A stretch of 32,725 nucleotides of DNA from Opitutaceae bacterium (GTDB taxonomy: Bacteria; Verrucomicrobiota; Verrucomicrobiia; Opitutales; Opitutaceae): assembly GCA_027482905.1 (NCBI GenBank), contig JAIXVP010000250.1, forward strand, positions 1 through 32,725, read 5' to 3'. The notes beneath the pieces were generated by a model that had not been told where the DNA came from, did no database searches, and was given only the letters and a program-made list of their open reading frames with translations. A program made the position numbers and the translations under genes. Shown piece after piece: positions 20,342 through 29,716 of this stretch (positions are counted from its first letter, which is position 1; each line of letters starts with the position of its first letter).

Positions 20342-23113
20342 TTAGAACTTGTAGGAAACGTCGACGAAGAACTGACGGCCGATGGCGCCGTAGGTGCCGG
20401 TGTCGACGTTGGAGTCGGTGTTTACCGTGTAATCGAGCGGCCCGAAACGGTTGAACACGTTGTTCACGCCGAAGGTCACCTTCAGGCCGGAGAGGAATCG
20501 CACGCCTTTCGGCACCTCGTAGGATACGGCGGTGTCGATGGAGTGGAAGGACTTGATCTTCGAATCATCCTCAAATCCGTCGAGGCCGGGGATGTAACGC
20601 CAGCCGACCATGAAGGAGTAGTCCGAGATGGCGTAGTCGAGCGAAGTGTAGGCCTGGTAATCGGGCAGCGTGCCATTCAAGAAAGACGACTTCCCGGCGT
20701 AGTCCTCGGCCTCGTCGCCGGGCAGGATGGCGGTCTCGTAGGAGAGGTAGATGCCGACGTTGGTGTTCAGGGTAAACACGCCCGCGCCGTCGGTGTCGAA
20801 GACGTAGGTGCCGGCGACGTCGAAGCCCTGGATGTCCACGCTGGAGAGGTTGGCCAGCGGGTTGGTGAGATAGACGTTGTCGGGCACGCCGGAAACCTGG
20901 CCCGGGGCGGTGATGGAGGTGCCGTCGAAGCTGTTCAGCTTGACGAGACTGGCGTAGGACGAAGCGGCGCCCTTGGTCTCAACATCCTGGAGGATGTTGA
21001 TATCGGGAACGCGGTCGACCAGCCCCTCCTGCTTGATGCGGAAGTAGTCCACGGAGACCTTCAGGCCCTTGATGGCGACGGGGGAGAGCACGACGCCGAG
21101 GGTGTAGTTCTGGGACTCCGCGGGGGTGAGGTCGGGATTCGAGACGGAGCGGGTGTTGGACTGGTAGTCCTCGACCACATCGCTGCCGTCGGCCGGGGTG
21201 AGATTGCCGGGCTCGGAGAACCCGATGTTATCCGGGCCGTTCACATCATACAGGGTGGGCGCGACGAAGGACTCCGAGTAGGTGCCGCGCAGGGCGAAAG
21301 AGTCGCCGAAGGGCTGATAGCGGAAGGTGAGCTTCGGGACGATGGGGTCCTCGTTGTCGCTATACATTTCCAAACGTCCGGCGGCGCTGACCTCCAGGTA
21401 ATGGGCACCGGGAACGTCTTTCAGCAACGGGACACGGACTTCGCTGAAAACGGATTGGATATCGCGGGAGGCGCTGAAGGGCTGAAGGGTGGTGGCGCCA
21501 AGCCAGCCGATGTTGCCGGAGGAGTCGGGCTGGCTGAGCGGGTCGGCGTTGGCTTCGAGCACTTCGCGACGGGTTTCACCGCCGATCGCGAGATCGAGAT
21601 CGCCGGCGGGAAGGGTGAGGATGGTGCCGTAAAACTTCACGTCGGCCCCGCCGAGGGTGCTCAGGAAATTGCCGTAGGCGGTGCCGATGGCGCCGGACTC
21701 CACGATGGCTCCGGGGGCCTGCTCGCGGGCGAAGAAATTGATCAGACCGCTGTCCACGGCCGCGACGAGATTGTCGTAGTTCACGACGCCGGGATTGCGG
21801 TAGGACTGGTCGGCGCGGCTGTAGTTGCCGGCGACCGACCAATGCCAGGTATCCGACAGCTTGCCCTCGAGGCCGAGCACGCCGCGGTAGGCCTCGGTCT
21901 CGGTGTTGTAGGCGCGGGGATACTCGACGAAGCGGTTGCGGGCGCGCACGCGCGTTTCGACGCCGTCATCCGGGTCGAGATCGACCGCGTCAAACGGATT
22001 GCCGTTCTGGCCGGCGTCGAAAACCAGATTGATGGGCTGGGCGTTGATCTGGGAGGACGTGTTCGTCTTCGACACCAGGATGTCGCCGAAAAGCTTCAGA
22101 CGGTCGTTGAACTCGTGGGAGAACGCCGAGGTGACGCCGGAACGCTCGTTGGCGATGATCTGGGTAACATAGCGGGAGAGATTGAAATTCAGGACCTGCT
22201 GGCCGGCGGTGTTGGGGCCGGCGTAAACGCCGCCGGCGACCAGATCGGCCGCCGATTGACCACCGCCCACCACGGTCGGGGCGTTCAGGGAGGAGTTGAG
22301 CAGATAGTATTCGCTGCCGATGTTGACCGAACCGGCAAACGTCGCCGTTCCGTAGGTCTCGGCGGAGTAGGGCCGCTCGTAGTTGAGCACCGGATCCTGG
22401 TTGGCGAATTCGGCGGCCACCGTGATCTTGGTCTTGCCGTCGCTGACGCCGCCGACGGCGTAGACGGAGCGCTCGATCGCGTTGCCGGTGTTGTCGGTCC
22501 AGGCGTAGCGGCCACCGACCTGAAAACCGTCGAAGTCGTCCTTCATGAGGACGTTGATGACACCGGAGACGGCGTCGGTGCCGTAGATGGCGGAGGCGCC
22601 GTCGGGCAGGATCTCGATGGACTTGACGGCGGCGAAGGGGACGAGGTTGACGTCGGTGAAAACAAACCCGCCGCTGGCGCCGACGGGAGCGGCGGCCATG
22701 CGTCGGCCGTTGATCAGGACGAGCGTGGCGGCGTTGCGCAGGGCGAGCTGGGTGCCGCCGTTGGTGTCGCCGGAACCGACGTTGGCGTTGGCGGTGCCGA
22801 GATTGTTGTTGCCGGAAAGCTGGGGTATACGACGACGCAAGGCGTCGCCGATGTTCGAACGGCTGGAGGCGGAGTTTACCTGGTCGGCGCTGATGCTGAT
22901 CACCGGAATGGCGACGGCGTCGGCCGCGAAAGGAAGATAGGAGCCGGTCACCTGGACGGGCTCCAAGGTGACAATTTGATCGGAAGCGGCCGGGGCGGCT
23001 TCAGTTGTGGAGGCGGGCTCGGCGGCCGGCAACAAAGTGGCGGCGGGCAGGGAAACGGCCAGACAGCCGGTTTTCCAGAATCTACGGGGAGTGCGGGTGG
23101 GTTTGGATTTCAT
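20342..23113 (-). CDS. TonB-dependent outer-membrane receptor
   Basis: A 923-aa energised outer-membrane transporter. The N-terminus MKSKPTRTPRRFWKTGCL followed by AVSLPAATLLPAAEPAS is a signal peptide. A plug domain starts around LEPVQVTGSY and includes LRNAATLVLINGRRM and ILPDGASAIYGTDAVSGVINV, both typical plug motifs. The rest is a beta-barrel of aromatic and Gly-rich strands ending in VDVSYKF, with the C-terminal Phe expected for BAM insertion. There is no carboxypeptidase-like extension and no SusD partner nearby. The ATG at 23113 gives a normal signal peptide. The AT-rich leader at 23200-23300 probably holds its promoter. It is the last gene of a same-strand set with purine-salvage enzymes, so nucleosides or nucleobases are candidate ligands; that is inference. 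Confidence 0.92.
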   Translation of the reverse strand: MKSKPTRTPRRFWKTGCLAVSLPAATLLPAAEPASTTEAAPAASDQIVTLEPVQVTGSYLPFAADAVAIPVISISADQVNSASSRSNIGDALRRRIPQLSGNNNLGTANANVGSGDTNGGTQLALRNAATLVLINGRRMAAAPVGASGGFVFTDVNLVPFAAVKSIEILPDGASAIYGTDAVSGVINVLMKDDFDGFQVGGRYAWTDNTGNAIERSVYAVGGVSDGKTKITVAAEFANQDPVLNYERPYSAETYGTATFAGSVNIGSEYYLLNSSLNAPTVVGGGQSAADLVAGGVYAGPNTAGQQVLNFNLSRYVTQIIANERSGVTSAFSHEFNDRLKLFGDILVSKTNTSSQINAQPINLVFDAGQNGNPFDAVDLDPDDGVETRVRARNRFVEYPRAYNTETEAYRGVLGLEGKLSDTWHWSVAGNYSRADQSYRNPGVVNYDNLVAAVDSGLINFFAREQAPGAIVESGAIGTAYGNFLSTLGGADVKFYGTILTLPAGDLDLAIGGETRREVLEANADPLSQPDSSGNIGWLGATTLQPFSASRDIQSVFSEVRVPLLKDVPGAHYLEVSAAGRLEMYSDNEDPIVPKLTFRYQPFGDSFALRGTYSESFVAPTLYDVNGPDNIGFSEPGNLTPADGSDVVEDYQSNTRSVSNPDLTPAESQNYTLGVVLSPVAIKGLKVSVDYFRIKQEGLVDRVPDINILQDVETKGAASSYASLVKLNSFDGTSITAPGQVSGVPDNVYLTNPLANLSSVDIQGFDVAGTYVFDTDGAGVFTLNTNVGIYLSYETAILPGDEAEDYAGKSSFLNGTLPDYQAYTSLDYAISDYSFMVGWRYIPGLDGFEDDSKIKSFHSIDTAVSYEVPKGVRFLSGLKVTFGVNNVFNRFGPLDYTVNTDSNVDTGTYGAIGRQFFVDVSYKF

Positions 23114-23464
23114 GCGTGGTGGGTGTTGGTTTGCGGAAACGTTACGCCTTGCCTGCGTAAACCGTGATTTGTCACGTGAAGGTAACAGCAAAACATGAGC
23201 CCAAGTCGGGCCTATTTTTCGGCGAATTTATATTTATGAGGAAAAGTAATACTACGCAATATTCTCAACATAAATATTTTACAAAAAAGACCAACAAAGC
23301 AAACAAACTGTGATTTACCGTGGGGAGATTTCAAACGCTATAATCGTCTTAAAAACGGAACAAAAATGGAAACGCGGCCCAAGTTGCGAAGTCATCAATT
23401 TCTCTGGTCGAGTCCCACATCGGCAGCCGACCCGACCGCAGCCCTGCATACGGCGCCAAAGAGG
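23114..23464 (-). promoter_or_regulatory. 351-bp AT-rich leader/promoter region of the TonB receptor
   Basis: This gene-free stretch has an A/T-rich core (about 23216-23375) unlike its surroundings. On the minus strand TTGCGT (23254-23259) and TAAATA (23231-23236) are 17 bp apart, and TATAAA (23227-23232) is an alternative -10. Between that and the gene lie a GCCC-GACTT-GGGC hairpin (about 23200) and the palindrome TCACGTGA (23172-23179). On the + strand TATAAT occurs at 23339-23344 without a good -35. No known riboswitch fold was recognised. Promoter boxes are guesses; the presence of a promoter region is more secure. Confidence 0.45.
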
Positions 23465-24052
23465 CTAACGCAGGCGCCCCCAGAAGACCGCCAGCAACCT
23501 AAAACACTGCACCGCGACCAGAACCAAACCGGCCATGGTCATCGGCTTGGAGAGGGTGGAGCAAAACAAGGGCGTGGCGGCGACCACTTCGCGGTAGGCT
23601 CGGGAAAACACCACCGCTACTATGGGCGAAAGGGCAAGAAACGCGGCGTAAAGGGTGAGCACGATGCCGATGGGCTGAGCGAACATCCCGACCAGGGTCA
23701 TCACCGTGGCGGCGTGCCCTTGGACGGCCGGATCGACCTTGAGCGACGCCAGGCAGAGCGGGCCCAGGACGCCGGCGAGGTATCGGGCCCAGGGGGCGAG
23801 AGTGCGGAACCCGTGGCCGAGGGCGGCGTAGGCCAATGCTAGCACGGCAAAAACTGCGCAGACCGCCACGGTGTCGCTCCAGGACAAAACCCGCAGCCAC
23901 GGCTGAAGAATCAGTCCGGTAAGGCCGGCGAGGCCGAGGCCCATGGCGATGAAGAAGCCGAGTTGCCCCATGGCCATCACGGCCGCCTCGCGTTTCAGGT
24001 AGATCGGGCGAATCTCGGCGGGAGGAGAGGTGGAAGCGGCTTGGCGAAGCAT
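23465..24052 (-). CDS. integral membrane protein, family not recognised
   Basis: A 195-aa hydrophobic protein with a short polar N-terminus (MLRQAASTSPPAEIRPIYLKRE) and about five hydrophobic segments, roughly at residues 26-50, 58-78, 86-105, 113-145 and 165-190. No motif identifies a family. The ATG at 24052 is preferred over an in-frame TTG at 24058. It lies 66 bp after the NUP-deaminase fusion gene and before the TonB receptor on the same strand. An inner-membrane partner, such as a transporter or anchor for the exported fusion, is possible by position only. Confidence 0.7.
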   Translation of the reverse strand: MLRQAASTSPPAEIRPIYLKREAAVMAMGQLGFFIAMGLGLAGLTGLILQPWLRVLSWSDTVAVCAVFAVLALAYAALGHGFRTLAPWARYLAGVLGPLCLASLKVDPAVQGHAATVMTLVGMFAQPIGIVLTLYAAFLALSPIVAVVFSRAYREVVAATPLFCSTLSKPMTMAGLVLVAVQCFRLLAVFWGRLR

Positions 24053-24118
24053 TTCCAAAAGGAAAGACGCGGAACGGACATGCGGCCCACCTTCGCACGC
24101 CGCGTGCCGATTCGGGAC

Positions 24119-25747
24119 TTACTTACGTTCGGCGGCTAGTCGGGCGCTCAGCACGGGGTCGCGCGGCCAGTAGGCTTCGTGAATGGCCAGACCTTCCGCC
24201 TCGAGCAGGGGTCCCTTGACCTGCACGGAAGGCTCGGTCCGGGCGAAAACTTCGCGGCATTCGAGGGGCGGCGGCGAGGGCGCGACGGCCGGGGCGGGCG
24301 GTTCCGCGCCGGCGGGGCGGGACGCGGCGATCACGGACCCGACCACGCGCATCAACTGGGTCGCGGTCGTGCCGTAGACCACCCGGCGGATGCCGGCCCA
24401 GCGAATGGCGCCGCAACACATGATGCAGGGCTCGGTGCTGGCGTAGAGGGTGCAGGCGGCGAGGGTGGCCGGATCGAAGCGCTGGGTGGCCTTGCCGATC
24501 AGCCCGGTCTCGGCGTGCTGGGTGAGGTCGCGGGTGGAGTAGATGGTGTTCTCGTATTCGAAGATCACGACGCCGTCCTTGACCAAAAGCGCGCTGAAGG
24601 GGTGGTTGCCGTGCTCGACGGCGGCGCGCGCGAGAGCGTTGGCCCGGACCATGAAGGCGCGGTCGGCCGCGTCGCAGGCGGGATCGTCGGGCAACGGCGC
24701 GATGGCCGCGACGGCGCCGGGCGGGGTCGTGCGGGCGGCGGGCCAGTCGGCGAGGATTTTCTGGACCACGCGGTTGCCGACCACAAAGGCGGCCTCCAGG
24801 GCCTCGTTGAAAGCGGTGAGGGCCGCCCCGCGTTCCCGGGCCAGACTCTGCCACGCGGTCATGTCGGGCGACTGCATGGTGTGGTTGCTGGCGGTTCGCA
24901 GCACGAGGACCCGGCCGAAGTCCACCCGGCCGGCGCGGGCGAGATTGCGAAGGGCCTGAAGGGTGCCGCTGTCCTCCATCGCCTTGGTGGTGAAGTTGCC
25001 CCGGTGACCGGTCCAGAAATCGACCCAGTCGTTGCCAAATTTCGTCATCCGCGCCCCGTGCCAGAACGTCGAGCTGCTGAGGTTGTCGCCGAGCAACACG
25101 AAGGGCGGCCGCTGTGCGTTCGGGTAGCCGATGAACTCGCTGCGCCGCCGAGCCAGCTCCGGAGAGTCGGGCAAAACCGTGTCCTTGGTCAGTTCGTAGG
25201 CCCACTCGGCGAGGCGTGGATTCAGCGCGAAAACCTGGCTGGGGTCCATCGGACGGTCCGGTTTGCGTTCAAAGGGTCGGGCCGAACCGAGCGGAAGGAA
25301 CCCCGTGCTCCAAGTCTCGGGAATCTCGCGGGCATCCAGTTCATGCGCGAGCCCGCCATCCACGACGTAACGGGTCCAAACCGCGCTGCCCATCGACCCG
25401 TCGGCGGGATCGATGCCCGAGATGCCGGCGACCAGCCAGTAGGCTTCGCGCAGGTCGAAGCGCGGATCGAGGCCAAGCGCCGTGGTGGAGGCTGCGGCGT
25501 TGGAGACGCCCATTCCCGTGGTGTAAACCAAGACGCCTTGGCCGTCGGTCCATACATCGGAATGCCCCGCCGGCAGCGGCAGGCGTTGGTCCAGATGCAG
25601 ACGCTCCTGCCACAAGCGACGCTCGCCCGGCTGACCTTCGTTTTGAAACATGCTGACGATCACCACCTTGATGGGCAGCGGCGGCGGCTCGGCGGTGGCG
25701 AGGGCGAGAGCAGGGCAAAGGAATCCGAAGCACGGGAGGATTTTCAT
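24119..25747 (-). CDS. exported fusion of purine nucleoside permease (NUP) domain and zinc nucleoside/base deaminase domain
   Basis: A 542-aa two-domain protein with signal peptide MKILPCFGFLCPALALATA. Residues about 25-337 match the NUP family: IKVVIVSMF, VYTTGMGVSNAAASTTALGL, FDLREAYWLVAGISGIDP, a GRVDFGRVLVLRTAS segment and AAFVVGNRVVQKILADW. Residues about 361-470 are a cytidine/guanine/tRNA-adenosine deaminase-like zinc domain with the catalytic set H411-A-E413 and P440-C441-I-M-C444. A Pro/Ala-rich stretch (478-495) and a short tail end the protein. The reading frame is continuous, with no sign of frameshift. Two activities on nucleosides or bases outside the cytoplasm, cleavage or transport plus deamination, are the simplest reading; substrate is unknown. 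It follows a cupin gene by 27 bp. Confidence 0.88.
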   Translation of the reverse strand: MKILPCFGFLCPALALATAEPPPLPIKVVIVSMFQNEGQPGERRLWQERLHLDQRLPLPAGHSDVWTDGQGVLVYTTGMGVSNAAASTTALGLDPRFDLREAYWLVAGISGIDPADGSMGSAVWTRYVVDGGLAHELDAREIPETWSTGFLPLGSARPFERKPDRPMDPSQVFALNPRLAEWAYELTKDTVLPDSPELARRRSEFIGYPNAQRPPFVLLGDNLSSSTFWHGARMTKFGNDWVDFWTGHRGNFTTKAMEDSGTLQALRNLARAGRVDFGRVLVLRTASNHTMQSPDMTAWQSLARERGAALTAFNEALEAAFVVGNRVVQKILADWPAARTTPPGAVAAIAPLPDDPACDAADRAFMVRANALARAAVEHGNHPFSALLVKDGVVIFEYENTIYSTRDLTQHAETGLIGKATQRFDPATLAACTLYASTEPCIMCCGAIRWAGIRRVVYGTTATQLMRVVGSVIAASRPAGAEPPAPAVAPSPPPLECREVFARTEPSVQVKGPLLEAEGLAIHEAYWPRDPVLSARLAAERK

Positions 25748-25774
25748 TTTGAGAACGGGACGATTTGGAACGCT

Positions 25775-26134
25775 TCAGGATGTTCCGGACGGGATGGCAA
25801 GCTGGGGCAGGCCGGCGGTGGCCGCGGAGGTGGCGAAGGCGACGAGGGTGACGACATGCGCCTCGGCCATCACCGTGTGCGGCGCGCCGGAGGGGAGGTC
25901 GACCCGCGCGCCGACCGAAGCCCAGACGGGCGGAAAACGCGGGCCGCCTTCGACGCGCAGGGCGCCGGCGAGCACATAGATGCGGACCGGCTCGGCGTGA
26001 CAATGCAGAGGCGCGGCGGGAAAAGCTCCCTGGTGAATCGTGACCGGCCACAAGTCGTCGCGCGCGATCTCGGCCAGAACCTCGGCCTTGCTTGAAAAAT
26101 GGGCGGGCCGGATCGAGACGATGGGCGCGGGCAT
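25775..26134 (-). CDS. cupin-domain protein
   Basis: A 119-aa single-domain cupin. The metal-binding motif H44-C-H46-A-E48 is followed by the V-L-A-G turn and the second-motif histidine H86 in DLPSGAPHTVMAEA. Small cupins of this kind bind a metal and serve as sugar or small-molecule isomerases, dioxygenases or sensors; no specific function can be assigned. It is 27 bp upstream of the NUP-deaminase gene and 43 bp downstream of the SirB1-like gene on the same strand, so cotranscription is likely. The ATG at 26134 is a clear start. Confidence 0.8.
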   Translation of the reverse strand: MPAPIVSIRPAHFSSKAEVLAEIARDDLWPVTIHQGAFPAAPLHCHAEPVRIYVLAGALRVEGGPRFPPVWASVGARVDLPSGAPHTVMAEAHVVTLVAFATSAATAGLPQLAIPSGTS

Positions 26135-27197: not shown

Positions 27198-28115
27198 TCA
27201 GTGCTTGCTCATCTCCGGGTGAATGCGGAGTCCGTCCCCCACCCTGCCCGCGTCCGGCAGCTTGGCGGCGCGCACCACGGCGCGTTTTACGATCTCGAGG
27301 CAAACCGGGTTCAATCGCTGGTAAACCGCCGGCAGCATGTCCCAACCCCACGCGCCGAGCCCCTCGGCCGGGTTGGAAATCACCACGAGACAGGCGTAGT
27401 TGATCCCGGCCTGCCGCGCGTAGGAAACCTCCGTGCCCACGCTCATGGTCACCAGGTCGCCGCCAATGGACTGGAAATGGCGGATCTCGGCCGCGCTCTC
27501 GAAACGCCCGCCCGCCGCCTGCAGGATGACGCCACGCGCGTGGACGTTGATGGCGTCGTATTGCCGGTCCGGCCGGATCACCGCGCGCGTTTCCTCGACC
27601 AGGATGCGGTGGATCAGCGGATCGACCGCCGGGGTCAGCCGCGCCAGCACCAGTCCCTTGTCCTTGAGCGACCCGTAGGGCAGCATTTTCGGGCGGTCGG
27701 TGTTAAAATCGATCACGTCGTCCGGGACCACAAAATCGAGGGTCTTGAAGGCCACGTTGATGCCGCCGGCGGTGGCTCCGCCGATGGCCTCGCGCACGCC
27801 GAGATGGTGCAGGGCCAGCCACGTGCCGACGAAGTTGCCCGAGCCGTGCATGTGGACGTAGTAAAATGGCACGCCGTCGATCTCGCCGAGGTGGATCTCG
27901 GGCGACGGACCGGTCGCGGTCTCGACGCGGAAACTGCTTTTCAAAAGTCCCGAATCGATCAGCGCATCGTTCAGAAAAGTGCCTCCGACCACCGCGACCC
28001 GCGCTTTGGGCGCGTCGGCCAGCGGGACGATCGAAGGCTCGACGGCGGCGCGGGCGCCGGGAAAACACGCGAACACGAACAGGGCGAGCAGGAGCGGGCG
28101 GAAGGGAAAACGCAT
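27198..28115 (-). CDS. exported purine nucleoside/methylthioadenosine phosphorylase-like protein
   Basis: A 305-aa phosphorylase-superfamily protein (PNP_UDP_1 fold) with an N-terminal signal peptide MRFPFRPLLLALFVFACFP then GARAA. The fold motifs are VAVVGGTFLND (the phosphate-loop position), HMHGSGNFVGTWLALHHLGV, IGGATAGGINV, GGRFESAAEIRHFQ and GGDLVTMSVGTEVSYARQAGI, matching the E-T-x-A-E-I-R and M-S/T-x-x-x-E-x-x-x-A-R pattern of MTA phosphorylases. Catalysis outside the cytoplasm is unusual for this family. The ATG at 28115 is chosen because it opens the signal peptide; an upstream in-frame ATG at 28142 is less likely. It follows the dehydrogenase by 48 bp. Confidence 0.85.
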   Translation of the reverse strand: MRFPFRPLLLALFVFACFPGARAAVEPSIVPLADAPKARVAVVGGTFLNDALIDSGLLKSSFRVETATGPSPEIHLGEIDGVPFYYVHMHGSGNFVGTWLALHHLGVREAIGGATAGGINVAFKTLDFVVPDDVIDFNTDRPKMLPYGSLKDKGLVLARLTPAVDPLIHRILVEETRAVIRPDRQYDAINVHARGVILQAAGGRFESAAEIRHFQSIGGDLVTMSVGTEVSYARQAGINYACLVVISNPAEGLGAWGWDMLPAVYQRLNPVCLEIVKRAVVRAAKLPDAGRVGDGLRIHPEMSKH

Positions 28116-28163
28116 GACCGCGCCGAGCACCGCCCGTGCCACCGGGGAGCCGCAAAGACGGGC

Positions 28164-29018
28164 TCAGGCGCCGAGGACCTTGGCCAGGGCGATGAAATCC
28201 TCGTCACCGTAGCCGCGCGCCTCGGCGGTTTTCAGCTGCTCGCGCACCGCGTCCAGCGCCGGCAGCTCCGCGCACCCCGCCGCCGAGGAGGCGAGGCGCA
28301 GATCCTTGTGCAGGTGCTTCACCGAGAATTGAGGCGAAAAATCCCCGGCGCGCAGCTTGGGCTCCTTCAGCTTCACCAGTCCGGAGTAACCGACGTTGCG
28401 GGCCAGCGCTCCGTAGAAAACGTCGTCGCCGATGCCCGCCGCCGCCGCCAGAGCGCGGGCCTCGATCAAGCCTTGGAGTTGGACGGCGAGGTTGAGGTTC
28501 ATCGCGAGTTTGAGCGCGGCCGCCTGGCGGTGATCGCCGATGAGGAGACGGGTGGCGGAGACGAGCGCGAGGACCGGCTCCAGTTCGGCCGCGAGCGCGG
28601 CGTCGCCGCCGAGGTAGAACACGGTCTGGCGCTGCTCGGCGGCGGGCTTGCTGCCGGTGAAGGGCGCCTCGAGGTGGCGCGCGCCGGTCGCGAGCACGGC
28701 GACGCGAAACTCGTCCGCCGACGCCGGGTCGATGGTGCTCGACTGCACGACCGTCTTGCCCGGCCCGAGGACCGGCGCGATGCGGCTGATCAGGGCGCGC
28801 ACCGCCGCCGGATCGGCGACCACGATCTGGATGACATCCGCCGCCGCGACCACCGCCTCGGGGGTGTCTAGCCAGCCGGGCGCGTCGGGTTGCGCGGTGC
28901 GATTCCAGGCACCGGCGAGCGCTCCGGCCGCCGCGTAGTGCCGCGCCCAGATGCCGCCGATGATGCCGAGCCCGAGCACGCCGACGCGCGGGCCGGAGTA
29001 GGTCGCCGGGGCACTCAC
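28164..29018 (-). CDS. NAD(P)-dependent beta-hydroxyacid dehydrogenase
   Basis: A 284-aa member of the 3-hydroxyisobutyrate/6-phosphogluconate dehydrogenase superfamily. The dinucleotide motif is G16-L-G18-I-I-G21 in RVGVLGLGIIGG. QSSTIDPASA (92-101) and EAPFTGSKPAAEQ (117-129) form the substrate and catalytic region. The catalytic lysine is K170 in ALKLAMNL with N174, and FSVKHLHKDLRLA is the C-terminal family block. The closest known types are glyoxylate/succinic semialdehyde reductases, but the substrate is not determined. The start is GTG at 29018, whose GTGA overlaps the stop of the upstream phosphorylase, so the two are translationally coupled. Confidence 0.9.
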   Translation of the reverse strand: MSAPATYSGPRVGVLGLGIIGGIWARHYAAAGALAGAWNRTAQPDAPGWLDTPEAVVAAADVIQIVVADPAAVRALISRIAPVLGPGKTVVQSSTIDPASADEFRVAVLATGARHLEAPFTGSKPAAEQRQTVFYLGGDAALAAELEPVLALVSATRLLIGDHRQAAALKLAMNLNLAVQLQGLIEARALAAAAGIGDDVFYGALARNVGYSGLVKLKEPKLRAGDFSPQFSVKHLHKDLRLASSAAGCAELPALDAVREQLKTAEARGYGDEDFIALAKVLGA

Positions 29019-29716
29019 GACAGCACCTCCAACAGGCGCGCGATGAAGCGGTTCACCCGCTCCTGATTCTCGTGCACCTTTTGCTTGAAGCTCGCGTAGT
29101 CGATGGCCGCGCCCTCGATGCCGTTGGCGTAGTTGTCCACCATACCGAAGGAGTTGTAGCGCAGCCCCAGCTCGGTGCAGAGGTCGGCCTCGGACGCGAG
29201 GGTCATGCCGACGACGTCGCCCCACGTTTTCATCACGCGGATCTCGGCCTTGGTCTCGAAGCGCGGACCGCGGGTGTGGACGTAGACCTGGCCGGTCGCG
29301 ATGGCGAATTCGGGCGCGAGCGCGGCGGCCACGACGGGCACGAGGTTGTTGGCGATGCCGGGCGCGCCCGCCTGCAGGACCTCGTCGTGGTAGGTCGCGG
29401 GCGGCTGCTGGATGGCCACGTAGTCGGAACAGGATACGAAGGTGCCGGGCGCGAGCGCGGGTCGGAGCGAGCCGACCGAGTTGAACGACACCACGTCGGC
29501 GAAACCGAGCTGCGCCAGCGCGGCGAAGTTGGCGCGGGCGTTGATCGAGTGCGGCGGCAGCGGGGCCGGGCCGGACCCGTGGCGGTTCAAGACCACCTGG
29601 TCGCCGCGCGATCGTAGCGTCACCGGACCGTATTTCGTCTCGACCGTCAGCGTGGTCCACGACGTAAATACCGGCGAATGAATGATGCTGGTTCCACTCA
29701 CGAGGGCGAACTTCAT
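29015..29716 (-). CDS. methylthioadenosine/purine nucleoside phosphorylase family protein
   Basis: A 233-aa cytosolic phosphorylase-superfamily enzyme. It starts [17 protein letters not shown] (phosphate loop near GTS) and contains RHGSGPAPLPPHSINARANF, the RHG...PHxxNxRAN pattern of MTA phosphorylase. It then has VSFNSVGSLRP, TRGPRFETKAEIR and GMTLASEADLCTELGLRYNS, ending with NYANGI. No signal peptide. The likely reaction is phosphorolysis of 5'-methylthioadenosine or purine nucleosides in the cytoplasm. It is the first gene of the minus-strand purine set and overlaps the dehydrogenase start by 4 bp. Its start overlaps that of the divergent lipoprotein gene by 39 bp. MTA versus inosine or guanosine specificity cannot be told by eye. 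Confidence 0.9.
   Translation of the reverse strand: MKFALVSGTSIIHSPVFTSWTTLTVETKYGPVTLRSRGDQVVLNRHGSGPAPLPPHSINARANFAALAQLGFADVVSFNSVGSLRPALAPGTFVSCSDYVAIQQPPATYHDEVLQAGAPGIANNLVPVVAAALAPEFAIATGQVYVHTRGPRFETKAEIRVMKTWGDVVGMTLASEADLCTELGLRYNSFGMVDNYANGIEGAAIDYASFKQKVHENQERVNRFIARLLEVLS

Follow-up and report, generated by a model that had tools for sequence, protein, structure and literature searches.

A NUP-deaminase fusion gene in a draft Opitutaceae genome and its putative role in extracytoplasmic purine breakdown

Introduction

The NUP (PF06516) of Candida albicans was reported, in passages of one article, to enable adenine-auxotrophic yeast to use adenosine, and yeast carrying it was not sensitised to toyocamycin; in the same passages the authors regard CaNUP as a transporter by which toyocamycin is not carried (PMC9431476). 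A NUP protein is listed in an excerpted table of PsbU-APEX2 labelling of the thylakoid lumen (PMC7880944), and a passage of a third article assigns NUP matches to the PUP phosphorylase superfamily (PMC9815663). Among zinc deaminases, structures of Msd (Msmeg3575) were solved with ammeline and with 5-azacytosine. A literature search that had most subscription papers outside its reach returned no paper on a NUP-deaminase fusion, and searches on PF06516 and on Msmeg3575, with the same limited coverage, returned none. Here, a gene is described in which both domains are joined in one frame. The domain architecture is new; its component parts are already known.

Materials and methods

The window is the whole stretch of DNA analysed (32,725 nucleotides), and all coordinates refer to it. 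NUP and deaminase parts were modelled separately by AlphaFold from a 29-row (A2) and a 31-row (A3) alignment, respectively. These alignments replaced a joint alignment of the fusion with relatives of both its domains (A1), in which the NUP rows had their latter halves set against deaminase sequence. Repeated sequences were removed prior to tree construction and the hydropathy test. For trees, rows were truncated at the stop codon, and a minimum length of 270 residues (NUP) or 120 residues (deaminase) was required; the deaminase tree was calculated from 39 sequences with FastTree and midpoint-rooted. Signal calls were based on Kyte-Doolittle hydropathy and not on a dedicated signal predictor.

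Results

The fusion gene and its parts are located as follows.

24119..25747, minus strand: NUP-deaminase fusion gene, 542 aa, ATG to TAA
25691..25747, minus strand: signal-peptide-like N-terminus by hydropathy, residues ~1-19, cleavage point guessed
24743..25672, minus strand: NUP domain, residues 26-335, NP-I/MTAN-like fold (Pfam and predicted model)
24974..24976, minus strand: E258 of the invariant M257-E258 pair (29/29 rows of A2)
24884..24886, minus strand: N288 in R-x-x-S-N (29/29 rows of A2; local alignments non-significant)
24668..24742, minus strand: linker, residues 336-360 (comparison with L005 and with L034, L036 and L037)
24122..24667, minus strand: zinc deaminase domain with C-terminal extension, residues 361-542 (Pfam, alignment and model)
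24509..24517, minus strand: H411-A-E413, zinc ligand and catalytic glutamate (sequence and 31-row alignment)
24416..24427, minus strand: C441-x2-C444, zinc ligands (sequence and 31-row alignment)

The sequence-only reading had claimed a continuous frame with an N-terminal NUP domain. The frame is single and uninterrupted, and a full-length PF06516 match bears out the domain (residues 26-335, E 4.3e-103, 345.2 bits, cut-off 27). The second Pfam domain, PF00383 dCMP_cyt_deam_1, was matched at residues 362-460 (E 7.5e-19, 68.0 bits, cut-off 25); both scores are far above chance level in the profile search. GC3 was 0.70-0.95 per 60-codon block over both domains and the joint (final 3-codon block excluded), and this uniformly high level gives no sign of a frame break. 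The gene is very probably real. It was seen in a single draft genome (457 contigs, 86.85% complete), which is probably a MAG.

The N-terminus, MKILPCFGFLCPALALATA, is hydrophobic; a 17-aa Kyte-Doolittle mean >1.6 occurs nowhere else in the protein. As the only hydrophobic stretch it resembles a signal peptide, in line with the earlier claim of one, and the protein is probably exported to the periplasm. Since hydrophobic 17-aa windows were confined to the N-terminus and the multiple membrane spans of a permease were not found, the NUP domain is best explained as soluble and not as a membrane permease.

The NUP-part model (pLDDT 90.9) matched 628 PDB chains at E<=0.001 in Foldseek, with MTA/SAH nucleosidase 4x24 as best match (E 3.3e-12). 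In VIA comparisons, which were drawn from chains ranked high by Foldseek, the top row was the periplasmic Aeromonas MTAN 5b7q (Z 24.3, 2.9 A, 234 residues), tied with the following rows to within 1. The domain as modelled thus adopts the nucleosidase/phosphorylase fold, and the kinship to nucleoside phosphorylases stated in the sequence-only reading holds at the level of fold. A Pfam search gave no PF01048 match to the NUP part at E<=1, and hhalign comparisons with PF01048 proteins, used as a register hint only, gave probabilities of 0.1-3% and no significant score. Because these sequence links are weak, the tie to the PF01048 superfamily rests on the fold.

Along the NUP sequence, G-M-G is followed by A-M-E-D (E258) and by R-T-A-S-N (N288), an order that the ME and S-D/N motifs also follow in the alignments with MTAN-like and trimeric-PNP-like proteins. 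E42, H230, M257, E258, R284, S287 and N288 were invariant in all 29 rows of A2. M257-E258 resembles the ribose-binding ME motif of nucleosidases. The MTAN-type SD position reads SN in 29/29 rows, in a register taken from non-significant alignments, and the SN motif is also present in alignment A5. By its place in the motif, N288 probably occupies the site of the catalytic Asp of MTAN or the base-binding Asn of trimeric PNP. Trimeric PNP uses Asn at this position, and D197N of MTAN is a crippled mutant; the MTAN structures 1z5o and 4p54 are titled as mutants. In one natural NUP (L155, G413:C60), D replaces N288 and V replaces H230, both otherwise conserved.

The window NUP and the stand-alone NUP L005 depart from near-invariant sites 35, 132, 237 and 238, which the other 27 of 29 rows keep, so this subclade may have altered or lost activity. 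The E to Q change at position 35 may reflect loss of a catalytic Glu, but E42, kept in 29/29 rows, is just as good a candidate for that residue, and the placement of position 35 varies with the alignment.

Nucleoside-cleaving enzymes of the nucleosidase type protonate N7, and toyocamycin, a 7-deaza nucleoside, lacks N7. For this reason, the yeast result as given in the passages of PMC9431476 would also fit extracellular cleavage of adenosine to adenine. NUP as an extracytoplasmic adenosine-cleaving enzyme is a reading of those passages, not proof.

In the deaminase part, H411, E413, P440, C441 and C444 were identical in 31/31 rows; they lie at the positions given in the sequence-only reading. 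The C-terminal extension after residue 460 belongs to the same deaminase subfamily. The model (pLDDT 92.6) was matched best by Msd 8wlv in VIA (Z 20.8, 2.4 A, 153 residues, 33% identity), with chain 2-159 aligned to model residues 19-191. Six Msd entries lead this ranking (Z 20.1-20.8), followed by TadA (19.2) and guanosine deaminase (18.9), and Foldseek returned Msd 5xko (E 1e-11). In the profile search 1wkq and 1tiy were on top, with guanine deaminase 1wkq first (8.3e-31); among the matches listed, Msd chains alone were aligned to near the profile end. The TadA profile NF008113 scored 60.2 bits, under its curated cut-off of 150.

The deaminase relatives split into two clades in the 39-sequence tree. 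One, which contains the fused domain, is marked by C445 directly after C444 (CCG motif). By a crude hydropathy test with a self-set cut-off on 38 distinct sequences, a signal-like stretch lies upstream of the deaminase in 24/27 members of the CCG clade and in 0/11 of the other. Deaminases of this class were described in the sequence-only reading as mostly cytosolic, which is not true of the CCG clade. The three members of that clade lacking a signal-like stretch are the fusion, L069 and L070; the latter two (G633, G644) are either cytosolic or have a mis-set start codon. Given this distribution, the fused domain most likely derives from an exported stand-alone deaminase. The fused deaminase forms a group with those of G398 and G397 (node support 0.908; 0.05 for the next node out, with G360). 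A genome of the set, G541, carries six CCG-type deaminases (L047, L057, L061, L064-L066), two of them in tandem, and a seventh of the other type (L067).

The NUP half pairs with L005 (~65% identity, local support 1.0), which belongs to a different family within the order, and own-family NUPs are at most 56% identical to it among the matches listed. The closer relation to L005 may point to transfer or to an ancient paralogue. L005 terminates ..DDWDTFREDIPGGLD-stop, and the fusion reads ..ADWPAARTTPPG at the joint, continuing AVAAIAPLPDDPACDAADRAF; stand-alone deaminases have a signal-like peptide followed by ..DDPAC... By this comparison, the joint sets the native NUP C-terminus against the mature deaminase N-terminus, with just the internal signal peptide missing. 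Such a clean joint is the expected outcome of selection for a working exported protein and difficult to obtain by misassembly. Origin of the fusion from two stand-alone proteins is well supported. A repeat search around the gene found nothing accounting for the fusion.

Genes surrounding the fusion are the following.

20342..23191, minus strand: TonB-dependent receptor, downstream on the strand of the fusion, context only
23465..24058, minus strand: predicted membrane protein of no family, directly downstream of the fusion (hydropathy)
25775..26134, minus strand: small cupin-like protein (Pfam cupin matches below cut-off)
27198..28142, minus strand: MTAP/PNP-like phosphorylase with signal-like N-terminus, context only (profile matches, hydropathy)

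In G398 (L036/L039/L108) and G397 (L037/L040/L109), two other genera with deaminases among the closest stand-alone ones, this cupin-like gene also adjoins the stand-alone deaminase; none was seen in the remaining 15 of the 17 exported-deaminase neighbourhoods (L107-L123, 5-19 kb). The window aligns on either side of the fusion with the same-genus genome G484 (L127) at 79-92% DNA identity; G484 has 339 bp where the window has 23117-25799, i.e. the fusion, the membrane protein gene and the last cupin codons. This empty site implies either a gain of the fusion in the window's genome or a loss in G484. The membrane protein gene was absent at the empty site and at every other locus of the 192.

The MTAP/PNP-like gene at 27198-28142 may encode another exported purine enzyme. 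A further MTAP/PNP-like copy, at 29015-29716, has no signal-like N-terminus. These genes are independent of the fusion, since the empty site of G484 has them too. In two other genomes (G140, G476), NUP and PF01048 genes are immediate neighbours on one strand.

On contig C299 of the same genome, XDH-like, xanthine-permease-like and 8-oxoguanine-deaminase-like amidohydrolase genes lie side by side. The permease-like gene scored above the NCS2 superfamily cut-off and below that of PbuX, and the XDH-like and 8-oxoguanine-deaminase-like genes were below the equivalog cut-offs. With these uptake and oxidation genes, externally made xanthine could be used. The purine catabolism genes adjoin a sequence encoding the oxygenase domain of a bacterial nitric oxide synthase (PF02898, 420.6 bits; L187 3841-5643, minus strand, G000:C299).

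Among 192 loci, NUP was present in 89, such a deaminase in 70 and both in five, all five being the window's own place; the search for the same two-domain architecture, which had been suggested from the sequence, therefore gave no second case. NUP was found near the exported deaminase in 0/17 neighbourhoods and such a deaminase in 0/18 NUP regions (L124, L126, L128-L140, L142-L144). Prevalence was tallied with the window's own genome included, from overlapping draws and with the best few candidates per genome scored: the deaminase part was matched in 16/252 genomes of the family (E<=1e-20), 8/372 of the order and 9/384 of the class (both E<=1e-30), the NUP part in 102/252 genomes of the family (E<=1e-60) and 2/2 in the family of G363, and the whole fusion protein as query in 26/387 genomes of the phylum (E<=1e-20). 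A search for related loci in genome contigs returned 4, none fused. In none of 220 matching plasmid records was 80% of the query covered at a single place, and no relative was found in viral sequences.

Matches beyond the 192 loci were judged on frame length, except for five long NUP frames that were examined. These (669-1072 aa; G531 twice, G538, G580, G122) contain no such deaminase. No NUP is present in the long frames that encode the deaminase in G541 (351 aa), G531 (479 aa) or G398 (370 aa), and a 617-aa open frame in G986 was rejected as a second fusion: its upstream frame has no NUP match and its own signal-like start. Two NUP domains occupy one 710-aa open frame in G223 (L018/L031), and adjacent NUP pairs in frames of ~670-720 aa appear, from the match table only, in G543, G546, G548, G549, G551, G552 and G494. 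Relatives are thus not all single-domain.

Discussion

The best-supported reading, to which we assign a probability of about 0.5, is that of an exported, apparently lineage-specific bifunctional enzyme acting in two steps in the periplasm. The NUP domain would cleave a purine nucleoside into base and ribose or ribose-1-phosphate, and the C-terminal zinc deaminase would then deaminate the released base, most likely converting guanine to xanthine. Overall, guanosine would go in and xanthine and ammonia come out; the genome's xanthine permease could import the xanthine and its xanthine dehydrogenase oxidise it. Both activities, the preference for purines and for guanine, the order of steps and their coupling are put forward on the strength of domain families, folds and gene content. 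Doubts arise because Asn stands where a catalytic residue would be expected, because sites 35, 132, 237 and 238 are changed, and because the fusion occurs only once. The observation made from the sequence alone is confirmed and its interpretation partly supported.

If the two-step reading is true, some bacteria degrade purine nucleosides to xanthine before import and within one protein. Exported deaminases and soluble "permeases" would then be explained, and the function of the widely annotated NUP family corrected. As the fusion ties NUP to a purine-base enzyme, the family's real activity becomes directly testable. Somewhat more tentatively, we suggest a wider picture, in which a single polypeptide, made by fusion of two exported scavenging enzymes, provides a periplasmic route from guanosine to xanthine. 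Such a route would in turn argue well for the entire NUP family being misnamed extracytoplasmic purine nucleosidases or phosphorylases, and for guanine-type deaminases of this lineage including an exported branch with an extra Cys (PC-x-MCCG).

Less probable, and still to be taken seriously, is a real exported fusion with two working and uncoupled activities, in which fusion merely co-expresses and co-exports the halves. The deaminase could then act on guanosine, isoguanine, ammeline-like or other amino-purine compounds, consistent with Msd in complex with ammeline and 5-azacytosine as nearest structure and with the closeness of plant guanosine deaminase; the 17 neighbourhoods in which stand-alone exported deaminases lack a nearby NUP point the same way. 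Coupling is instead favoured by the partner, a purine-nucleoside-type domain, and by the xanthine uptake and oxidation genes of the genome.

It is unlikely that the deaminase alone is active and the NUP half a silent or binding carrier that supplies the signal peptide. The four changes shared with L005 at sites kept in 27/29 rows, and Asn in place of the MTAN Asp, would suit such a carrier; the domain is nevertheless complete to its native end and retains all seven invariant residues from E42 to N288, and Asn is what trimeric PNP uses there.

Misassembly of two single-domain genes is very improbable, even in a fragmented draft and with the fusion in no other genome searched. The joint is in frame at a domain boundary and lacks just the internal signal peptide, and GC3 is high throughout. 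The cupin-like gene upstream of NUP is also the neighbour of two of the closest stand-alone deaminases, and G484 matches both flanks; with both flanks corroborated, misassembly would take two precise misjoins. Two circumstances had been named in advance as speaking against the fusion: relatives without the architecture and an error joining two genes. The first was encountered, as no other NUP with a deaminase occurs in the 192 loci; the second is unsupported, because the frame is unbroken, the joint falls at a domain boundary and the flanks agree with other genomes. Least probable of all is that the NUP half is a genuine membrane permease for nucleosides to which a deaminase has been joined, as the family name and the complementation of adenosine use by CaNUP in passages of PMC9431476 would suggest, since no hydrophobic 17-aa window lies beyond the N-terminus and the model is compact and nucleosidase-like.

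The preferred two-step enzyme can be set beside five kinds of known protein. With the PF06516 family, including Candida albicans NUP, it shares a full-length domain (345 bits) and differs by the fused deaminase and by belonging, with L005, to a pair changed at near-invariant sites. With MTA/SAH nucleosidases and the NP-I superfamily (PF01048) it shares the predicted fold (Z 24.3) and the ME and R-x-x-S-N/D motifs in the same order, whereas its NUP part has no PF01048 profile match, probably an Asn where MTAN has the catalytic Asp, and insertions. Msd is the top structural match (33% identity) over near-whole length including the C-terminal part, but is a small, single-domain chain of 157-159 aa with a substrate that may differ from that of the fused deaminase. 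Guanine deaminase (B. subtilis type 1wkq/1tiy; NE0047) and plant guanosine deaminase belong to the same zinc deaminase group; their chains are single-domain, whereas the C-terminus of the fused deaminase is Msd-like. The stand-alone deaminases L034, L036 and L037 are 72-75% identical to the fused domain and share its C-terminal extension, but have their own signal-like N-terminus in place of a NUP domain.
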